Assembly: GCA_030827745.1 (NCBI GenBank) | Contig: JAURDW010000015.1 | Location: 1 to 34,489 of the forward strand | Direction of reading: 5' to 3' | Length of the DNA stretch: 34,489 bases | Origin: Candidatus Poseidonia sp. | GTDB lineage: Archaea > Thermoplasmatota > Poseidoniia > Poseidoniales > Poseidoniaceae | In this document: positions 11,600 through 13,704 of the stretch, one piece after another | How positions within the stretch are numbered: the stretch's first letter is position 1 | Layout of the letters: every line of letters begins with the position of its first letter | Notes under the pieces: generated by a model | The model's database searches: none | What the model saw: only the letters and a program-made list of their open reading frames with translations | Told to the model about the DNA's origin: nothing | Translations under genes and position numbers: made by a program

Positions 11600-11651
11600 G
11601 CCGGCGCAAGCCTGTTCTCTCATTCCTAACAACTCTTTATGTAGGGAAAAA

Positions 11652-12677
11652 ATGGCGTTTCGTATCATGGCTGAAAACTTGGTGCTGAAGACAACACAAC
11701 AGGTTTGCGCCGCCGACGTTGATACCATTCGCGAAGTGTATTTAGAAGCGATTTGTGTGCTTGCGGGTGCATCAACTTCGTTCATTCTCAAAGAAAACGA
11801 GCAACAATCAACGGTGGTTCGTTCCACCCTCCCAAGCCTCATGAACGTCAACATCCCAAACCATCAAATTCGCCTCGAAGACAGCGCTTTTTGTCTTGAC
11901 CATGACGAGATGAACGCCTGGAAAATGCTCCCACCCGTCGCCGATGGTCGAATGCAATCCATCATCGCACGACGGTTCAATGTCGCAGGCGAAGGGTACG
12001 TTGCCTGCGCAGGCTCCTCGATGAATGATGCCTTTTCCAAAGAGACCATTGACCAGTTCAACTGGACCGCTCCGCTGGGCGCCCATACGGTACAATCCAT
12101 CCGGACGAGAGCCAAATACGAACGGGAAAAGTTGCAACTCAACAAGAAAATCGAAGAGGCCGAAGACTTGCTTATTGTCGCAGAAGCGGCCTCCGACCAG
12201 CTTGAAGGAGCGAACGCACAACTTTCCAATGCGCTTCTTGAAGTTTCAAGCGCCAAGGCCCAATCCAAAGCCCTGCTTCTCACGGTCGGCATCGGTATTG
12301 TCCTTTTTGCCATCTCTGAATTCCAAATTGAACCGTGGCTCGAGGCCTCGGGTGTTTCAGCATCAACGCTTGTCTACCAAAAAATCTTGATTCTCGGAGG
12401 GCTGGTTCCCATCCAAGTCCTGGTGGAACGCTTTATTTCATCCAAAGTAAACTCAAACGCCTCAACCATCCGTGTGTCCATGTACGAGGAAGTCCTGGGC
12501 GTCCTGTTGGAAGACGGGGCCCTCTCGGAGAAGGAACTGAAGTGGCTTGAACTTTATCGCCGCCAACAAGGGGTCCTCAAAGAAGAAGCCCAAGCGGTTG
12601 AGGCACGAATGCGCACACAAATGCTCACTAATAGTAGGAAAAAATTACAAAGCCGCCCTGCCAGCACATCTGCATAG
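11652..12677 (+). CDS. Coiled-coil two-helix membrane protein upstream of rhodopsin (possible signalling partner)
   Basis: From the ATG at 11652 the protein has 341 residues. Residues 1-150 form a mixed alpha/beta domain whose size, position and pattern resemble a GAF-like sensor domain, though no motif proves this. Residues ~150-205 are a strongly heptad-like, charged coiled coil. Two transmembrane helices follow (about 207-224 and 241-260). A cytosolic C-terminal part (275-325) includes VLGVLLEDGALSEKE, which recalls the start of TerB-like helical modules. An in-frame start at 11472 would read through the end of the preceding gene in another frame and is rejected. Its stop is 13 bases from the rhodopsin ATG, so both are very likely on one transcript. 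Light signalling or a structural partnership with the rhodopsin is inference from position and architecture. Confidence 0.65.
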   Translation: MAFRIMAENLVLKTTQQVCAADVDTIREVYLEAICVLAGASTSFILKENEQQSTVVRSTLPSLMNVNIPNHQIRLEDSAFCLDHDEMNAWKMLPPVADGRMQSIIARRFNVAGEGYVACAGSSMNDAFSKETIDQFNWTAPLGAHTVQSIRTRAKYEREKLQLNKKIEEAEDLLIVAEAASDQLEGANAQLSNALLEVSSAKAQSKALLLTVGIGIVLFAISEFQIEPWLEASGVSASTLVYQKILILGGLVPIQVLVERFISSKVNSNASTIRVSMYEEVLGVLLEDGALSEKELKWLELYRRQQGVLKEEAQAVEARMRTQMLTNSRKKLQSRPASTSA

Positions 12678-12684
12678 AGGAGAT
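12678..12684 (+). promoter_or_regulatory. Ribosome binding site for rhodopsin
   Basis: AGGAGAT sits seven bases before the ATG at 12691, in the 13-base gap after the preceding stop. It fixes the rhodopsin start and rules out the in-frame start at 12547, which lies inside the upstream gene. Confidence 0.7.
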
Positions 12685-12690
12685 GAAACC

Positions 12691-13704
12691 ATGACAACGA
12701 ACCAGAAGCCATTCCTGCTTGCTTTTTTGTCGCTCGCCGCTTTGACACTTTTGCCCACGGCCGCAGCCGCTGGCGCGTCGACCTTTGAGAACGGGGATGC
12801 AATGTCGACCCTCGAACGAGTCACGTACATATCGTTCGTTGCCATCAGTTTGGTCTTCATCGCAGCTGCGTTCTTTTTGTTCATGGAGCGCAACGACGTC
12901 GCACGACGTCACCGTCCTGCCATTGGACTGGGCGTCATGATCGTCGGTATTGCCGGGTTTCAATACGCCCTCATGCAAGATGTTTACTTGACCGACGGTT
13001 CTATTCCAACCGATTTTCGTTACTCTGACTGGTTGACCACGGTGCCCTTGATGGCCGTTACTTTCGCGCTTCTCGCAGGGAAGGACGCCTTCACCAGCCA
13101 CCGTCTGTTTAGCCTACCGGGCATGTCGGTCCCCGGCATCATCATCGTCGGTTCCTTGTTCATGATGGTGGGCGGATACATCGGGCAGGTTGAAGTTGAC
13201 CAGGCGCTCGCTGAAGGCGTCAAACCCTCCAACATCCATTGGTTCTTCTTTGGTCAAGGCATGGTTGGCTACCTCACGGTGTTCTTGATTGTCGGGACAC
13301 CGTTCACCGGAGCGTACGGCATCGACGATAGCAAAATCACCGACCCTGCCATCCAGCTGACGATGACTCGGCTGCGTCGCCTCATTCTCATCGGCTGGAC
13401 CATTTACCCTGCAGGCTACATCATCGGGGCCTTGGAAGTTGGAGGACAGGATGGGGCTGCCTCGATGATGCTGGCCTACAACATCGCTGACCTCGTCAAC
13501 AAACTCGCCTTTGTCATCATCGTTCTTGTCGGAGCCCGCAGCACCGAAGAAGCACAGGCCACGCCCCTCGGATTCTACGCAGGCCATGCGCCTTCAGCAA
13601 CGACAAGCCATGATTCGGACGACAAGGGTGCATCGGAAAGTCTGTTGGAACTTGCAGCGCTTTCAAAGGAACTCGCAGAGGCTGAGCTTAGCGGCGAACT
13701 CTGA
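12691..13704 (+). CDS. Proteorhodopsin-like microbial rhodopsin with unusual donor-site residues
   Basis: The 337-residue protein begins with a signal-like hydrophobic N-terminus (8-27, ending in an Ala run) and then seven helices. Helix C reads FRYSDWLTTVPLM, matching the proteorhodopsin FRYxDWLxTVPL motif. Helix F has GWTIYPAGY. Helix G carries the retinal Schiff-base lysine in YNIADLVNK (K271). Counter-ion Asp113 and Thr117 equal D97 and T101 of green proteorhodopsin, and Met121 at the 105 spectral-tuning position predicts green absorption. However, the cytoplasmic donor Glu108 is Thr124 and the conserved His75 is Gln91. A long acidic C-terminal tail (~285-337) is present. It most resembles light-driven proton pumps, but the changed donor site could mean a slow photocycle and sensory use. 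No retinal-synthesis gene is in the window. Confidence 0.93.
   Translation: MTTNQKPFLLAFLSLAALTLLPTAAAAGASTFENGDAMSTLERVTYISFVAISLVFIAAAFFLFMERNDVARRHRPAIGLGVMIVGIAGFQYALMQDVYLTDGSIPTDFRYSDWLTTVPLMAVTFALLAGKDAFTSHRLFSLPGMSVPGIIIVGSLFMMVGGYIGQVEVDQALAEGVKPSNIHWFFFGQGMVGYLTVFLIVGTPFTGAYGIDDSKITDPAIQLTMTRLRRLILIGWTIYPAGYIIGALEVGGQDGAASMMLAYNIADLVNKLAFVIIVLVGARSTEEAQATPLGFYAGHAPSATTSHDSDDKGASESLLELAALSKELAEAELSGEL

Follow-up and report, generated by a model that had tools for sequence, protein, structure and literature searches.

The window analysed here, a stretch of 34,489 nucleotides constituting contig C26 of a Candidatus Poseidonia sp. genome (G000; 1.74 Mb, 82% complete), contains a two-gene unit that encodes a rhodopsin, P0002 (12691-13704), and, directly upstream on the same strand, a membrane protein, P0001 (11667-12677). 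We regard it as an even prospect that the two form a light-sensing pair, in which the light signal would be relayed by a new transducer family. A signalling partnership is favoured because the pair is conserved in all three readable cases, the partner and a rhodopsin tail are lost from the same genomes, and the paralogue of one half of P0001 is co-encoded with H-NOX, a haem NO/O2 sensor. Marine Group II (MGII, Poseidoniales) archaea are abundant in the surface ocean, and surveys have until now regarded their rhodopsins as proton pumps present in a single copy: in one, pumping was predicted from D97 and K/E108 (PMC6336850), and another argues for the retention of no more than one copy (PMC6461757). 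The present genome retains a second, pump-altered rhodopsin together with a dedicated partner. If the pair signals, MGII archaea would sense light besides harvesting it, and some surface-ocean archaea may do so through a transducer family unlike known ones and not described before.

The stop codon of P0001 (12675-12677) and the ATG of the rhodopsin gene (12691) are separated by a gap of 13 bases that contains a ribosome-binding site, AGGAG (12678-12682; this and all features below are on the forward strand), as a preliminary description of the locus had stated. In G146 and G128 the corresponding stop and start overlap or nearly do so. The same description placed the start of P0001 at 11652, which would yield 341 aa. 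The start is probably the ATG at 11667 instead (336 aa), because the methionine numbered M6 in the frame from 11652 is common to all three homologues and a TATA-like element, CTTTATGTA (11634-11642), lies ~33 nt 5' of this ATG as a putative promoter, with an identical 9-mer 32 nt 5' of the homologue's start in G146. Both genes are real coding regions under purifying selection (dN/dS ~0.13, with dS near saturation).

P0002 (337 aa) is a type-1 microbial rhodopsin, with a match to PF01036 (E=7.5e-31; 107.8 bits against a cut-off of 24.6), an AF2 model of pTM 0.75, a hydrophobic N-terminal leader (helix 6-19) and a helix G segment YNIADLVNK with the retinal lysine K271 (13501-13503). In the alignment, its helix C motif RYSDWLTTVPLMAVT (13018-13062) supplies D113, T117 and T124, and thus reads D-T-T at BR positions 85/89/96; GPR E108 is aligned with a threonine and the donor is lost, in agreement with the altered donor site noted earlier. 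The position of GPR H75 is occupied by Q91 (12961-12963). Residues W114, W236, Y239, P240, D267 and K271 are kept at retinal-pocket places. Given the loss of both the donor and the counter-ion-associated histidine, a slow photocycle is expected, closer to that of a signalling rhodopsin than to that of a pump.

Five rhodopsins of the P0002 type are present among 319 Poseidoniales genomes (DTT in G000, G144, G146 and G155; DTC in G128): the donor position is T in four and C in one, never E or K, and the H75 position is Q in all five. In the tree they form a single clade (100/99) adjacent to that of the archaeal DTK rhodopsins. The nearest clade, archaeal Clade-B proteorhodopsin (DTK, green-tuned; PMC6336850), shares 36-42% identity and M at the tuning site with P0002, which differs from it in the change of the donor from K to T and of H75 to Q, a longer D-E loop, a C-terminal helix and the partner gene. 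An ordinary DTK rhodopsin is also present in G000, G144, G146 and G155; that of G000 lies on contig C117 (L074, 4223-5104), with no P0001-like gene beside it. In G128 (90% complete) the sole rhodopsin found is of the P0002 type (L005, 2026-3012); lacking a DTK copy, this genome may use it for energy, which counts against a purely sensory role there. A scan of viral contigs with the P0002 rhodopsin recovered nothing.

Pfam scans of P0001 gave no match to a named family. Its AF2 model (mean pLDDT 70.7, pTM 0.41) shows, after an alpha/beta N-terminal domain, one long helix, then a helical hairpin and finally a pair of C-terminal helices. The N-terminal domain (11715-12095; residues 22-148, counted here and below from 11652) is modelled with pLDDT ~77-88 across residues 41-130, and its top PDB matches in Foldseek searches are nearly all GAF domains, such as those of PDE2A, phytochrome and DevS (best TMt 0.69). 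A PDB sequence search with this part gave no credible match. The domain thus has a predicted GAF fold, and the GAF-like assignment of the preliminary description stands at the level of fold, though not as a Pfam sequence match. The coiled coil and two transmembrane helices of that description are likewise recovered: the long helix constitutes the coil (12096-12272; residues 149-207), and two hydrophobic segments (~203-226 and ~239-264) correspond to TM helix 1 (12273-12329; residues ~208-226), also supported by homology to the 7TM-2TM-TerB proteins discussed below, and TM helix 2 (12375-12437; residues ~242-262), delineated from hydropathy. A TerB-like C-terminal domain (12471-12614; residues 274-321) is suggested by homology and by weak signals that agree with one another: the Pfam TerB family (PF05099) matches the C-terminal part of a P0001 paralogue (E=0.04) and of a more distant relative (E=0.0014) at 14.6 and 19.3 bits, below the gathering cut-off of 24.4, and the family profile matches the TerB structure 2ou3 at its C-terminal end (E=0.085). 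P0001 itself gave no PF05099 match in the Pfam scan, the TerB-like segment proposed earlier finding weak support in the relatives. Over the three homologues (67% identity for L004, 50% for L005), invariant residues make up 79% of the membrane-proximal coil (179-207) and 86% of TM2, as against 28% of the GAF domain and 13% of the distal coil. This concentration of conservation next to and within the membrane is consistent with a light-sensing pair.

The preliminary description pointed to the conservation of the gene pair across MGII genomes as a check on its proposal. In 319 Poseidoniales genomes and a scan of GTDB genomes, full-length P0001 is present in G000, G146 and G128, always directly 5' of a rhodopsin of the P0002 clade (3/3 readable); none was found away from rhodopsins, and the GTDB scan added no further full-length copy. 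The pair has been retained in two genera, at a protein identity of 50%. Among 171 genomes of the family, an N-terminal domain profile matches only these and G151; in G151 a piece of P0001 is cut by the contig end and is preceded by the PRTase gene that also precedes P0001 in the window. G144 and G155 encode an intact P0002-type rhodopsin without a full-length P0001. Ahead of the G144 rhodopsin, a stretch of 551 nt contains two colinear, frame-shifted pieces of P0001 (24.3 and 25.4 bits, the best of 500 dinucleotide shuffles reaching 22.3), which correspond to G146 protein residues 253-269 and 302-328 and whose spacing would place the old stop ~17 nt before the rhodopsin. By these alignments, G144 carries a decayed P0001 remnant at the original place. 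A search before the rhodopsin of G155 found nothing above noise; an acidic 150-aa ORF of no clear relation (L055, 10201-10653) stands there in P0001's place. Since both genomes keep the rhodopsin without its partner, it must serve some purpose there, either unaided or with a different partner.

In G000, G146 and G128 the rhodopsin terminates in a linker followed by a helix of motif LLxxAAxS (LLELAALS in P0002, 13633-13701), which AF2 models in P0002 as a separate low-confidence helix (315-336). This tail helix is missing from the rhodopsins of G144 and G155 and from all others compared, and so is kept only in the three that adjoin P0001. In the tree, (G128,(G146,(G155,(G000,G144)))), G144 groups with G000 as its sister (98/91), G155 branching earlier (95/50). 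Given this topology, the simplest history is that of one ancestral pair, from which partner and tail were lost together twice. The co-loss, which rests on five sequences, is suggestive of the tail being a docking motif for P0001. The light-signalling pair of the preliminary description is partly supported: the conserved pairing, the co-loss and the H-NOX-linked paralogue described next favour it, and the two genomes that keep the rhodopsin without the partner speak against it.

A stand-alone protein of ~200-240 residues is paralogous to the coil-2TM-TerB half of P0001; its gene directly follows that of H-NOX (181 aa; Pfam HNOB, E ~1e-39) in eight genomes (on contig C55 of G000 and in G066, G129, G144, G146, G148, G154 and G155). 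The two families share 29-36% identity over ~140-180 residues (E down to 7e-23), the homology spanning the coil, both TM helices and the C-terminal domain. Unlike P0001, the H-NOX-linked protein has no GAF domain, and its gene follows H-NOX rather than preceding a rhodopsin; the upstream neighbour of P0001 in G000 and G151 is not H-NOX but the PRTase gene. The pairing of the paralogue with H-NOX indicates that the family employed with a haem gas sensor also includes a GAF-bearing member next to a rhodopsin. H-NOX occurs in 9/319 genomes, including all five with a P0002-type rhodopsin; the hypergeometric values for this co-occurrence (4.7e-9, and 6e-4 within the genus) serve as guides, the genomes being related. 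Next to the rhodopsin locus of G144 and G146, in divergent orientation, lies the H-NOX pair. In G128 the H-NOX gene has no coil-2TM-TerB partner beside it, and P0001 alone was found to match the family strongly. Searches of the open-access literature found neither papers joining H-NOX with MGII or archaeal rhodopsins nor a published name for the H-NOX-linked protein. The G000 pair (L063, 2239-3480, minus strand) is followed by a pirin-like gene, as are those of G144 and G146, and the pairs of G148, G154 and G155 sit by an ABC transporter. In G129 the paralogue is longer (L059, 1063-2322), with a long N-terminal extension bearing repeats of VAPVPSLSDL.GKAT.

Haloarchaeal sensory rhodopsins have no carboxylic donor and are co-encoded with a two-TM, coiled-coil transducer, Htr. 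P0002 and P0001 resemble them as a donor-less rhodopsin co-encoded with a coiled-coil two-TM protein. P0001 differs from Htr in that its sensor domain and coil precede the helices, as observed in the preliminary description, and in that a TerB-like end follows them. An MCP/Htr-type transducer was considered for P0001 and rejected, given the absence of any MCP or HAMP match in Pfam and the presence of only the TerB-like end after the TM helices. Anabaena sensory rhodopsin and ASRT are likewise a rhodopsin and a non-MCP partner in one operon, but ASRT is small and soluble, with a beta-sandwich fold, whereas P0001 belongs to another family and sits in the membrane (PMC3267196, PMC2739507). The closest published case is that of the bacterial flotillin-associated rhodopsins (FArhodopsins) of SAR11, HIMB59 and Pseudothioglobus (PMC10308929), which similarly are second rhodopsins beside a bona fide pump, with a DTT-type motif and a membrane-associated partner gene within ~16 nt on the same strand. 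The FArhodopsin combination of DTT, DTL or DNI with an ordinary second rhodopsin is found in G000, G144, G146 and G155, and not in G128. Their partner is flotillin, whereas that of the archaeal P0002 is a GAF-coil-2TM-TerB protein, and no SPFH (flotillin) domain was matched in P0001 or the flanking genes scanned. Unlike FArhodopsins, P0002 has a leader and keeps the retinal-pocket residues; it scores 94.8 bits with GPR as against 62.8-67.5 bits with the solved FArhodopsins, sequences that were outside the rhodopsin tree. In light of the missing flotillin, the leader and these scores, FArhodopsin membership was set aside.

For the light-sensing pair, we propose that P0002 would bind P0001 in the membrane via the two P0001 helices and the adjacent conserved coil, with the C-terminal helix of the rhodopsin adding a contact on the cytoplasmic side. 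In a presumably slow photocycle, photo-isomerisation could shift the helices and the coil and so alter the TerB-like cytoplasmic end, which might then act on a putative target; that no output of the kinase, MCP or cyclase kind can be recognised for the pair counts against this reading, as does the weakness of the TerB assignment. The GAF domain could constitute a second, cytoplasmic input, at the place where the paralogue pairs with H-NOX.

Some of the same evidence can be accommodated if P0001 relays no signal and acts as an oligomerising membrane scaffold, built on its coiled coil, by which P0002 is clustered or stabilised, an explanation that we hold to be rather unlikely. The layout would then be as in the FArhodopsins (a second rhodopsin with a DTT-type motif and its partner a few bases away), for which a scaffold-type role of flotillin has been proposed (PMC10308929), and the conservation of the coil and TM2 while the GAF domain drifts would fit. 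The role of flotillin is itself unproven, and a scaffold leaves unexplained both the GAF fold and the constant pairing of the paralogue with H-NOX. Quite unlikely, in our estimate, is the converse flow of information, from P0001 to the rhodopsin, in which P0002 pumps protons slowly and the GAF domain tunes or switches it in response to a cytoplasmic ligand. Such a pump would agree with the retention of D113, T117 and the retinal-pocket residues, with the P0002-type rhodopsin standing alone in G128, and with its persistence without P0001 in G144 and G155; yet both the donor and H75 are altered, a change of a bacterial PR from DTE-Q to DTT-T is reported to have abolished function (PMC10308929), and four of the five genomes already have a DTK rhodopsin. 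These two explanations keep weight mainly because G144 and G155 are without P0001 and G128 is without another rhodopsin.

That the genes have no joint role, P0001 being an independent GAF sensor that shares the operon by chance, appears improbable. The GAF domain may suffice as an input on its own, and the H-NOX-linked paralogues of G066, G148 and G154 adjoin no rhodopsin; chance association is difficult to reconcile with a pair kept across two genera at such divergence and with the joint loss of partner and rhodopsin tail.

Beyond the light-sensing pair, the 2TM-TerB end also closes multi-TM proteins of ~330-560 residues across Thermoplasmatota. Profile comparison (hhalign) relates P0001 to these across the two TM helices and the TerB-like region (97.9%, E=4e-13); they are apparently 7TM, the count of seven helices having been read from the sequence rather than computed. 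The weakest matches of P0001 elsewhere (L013-L020, those read through) are such 7TM-2TM-TerB proteins, and were rejected as orthologues. In them a 7TM unit would precede 2TM-TerB in cis, whereas here the 7TM rhodopsin would act in trans, an architectural parallel by analogy. Tentatively, and with somewhat less than even confidence, we suggest that MGII archaea possess a modular sensory system in which coil-2TM-TerB transducers are joined to H-NOX for gas, to a donor-less rhodopsin for light and, by fusion, to 7TM receptors for other cues; P0002-P0001 would then differ from both the Htr and the ASRT type of rhodopsin-transducer pair, combining light and GAF-ligand inputs in one complex. If the pair signals, the coil-2TM-TerB family would also open a way into the study of many 7TM-TerB proteins of Thermoplasmatota that are as yet uncharacterised. 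The multi-TM 2TM-TerB-like family (L013, L018-L020, L109-L120) is large and uncharacterised, and in L111 and L113 EF-hands precede a second TerB-like unit.
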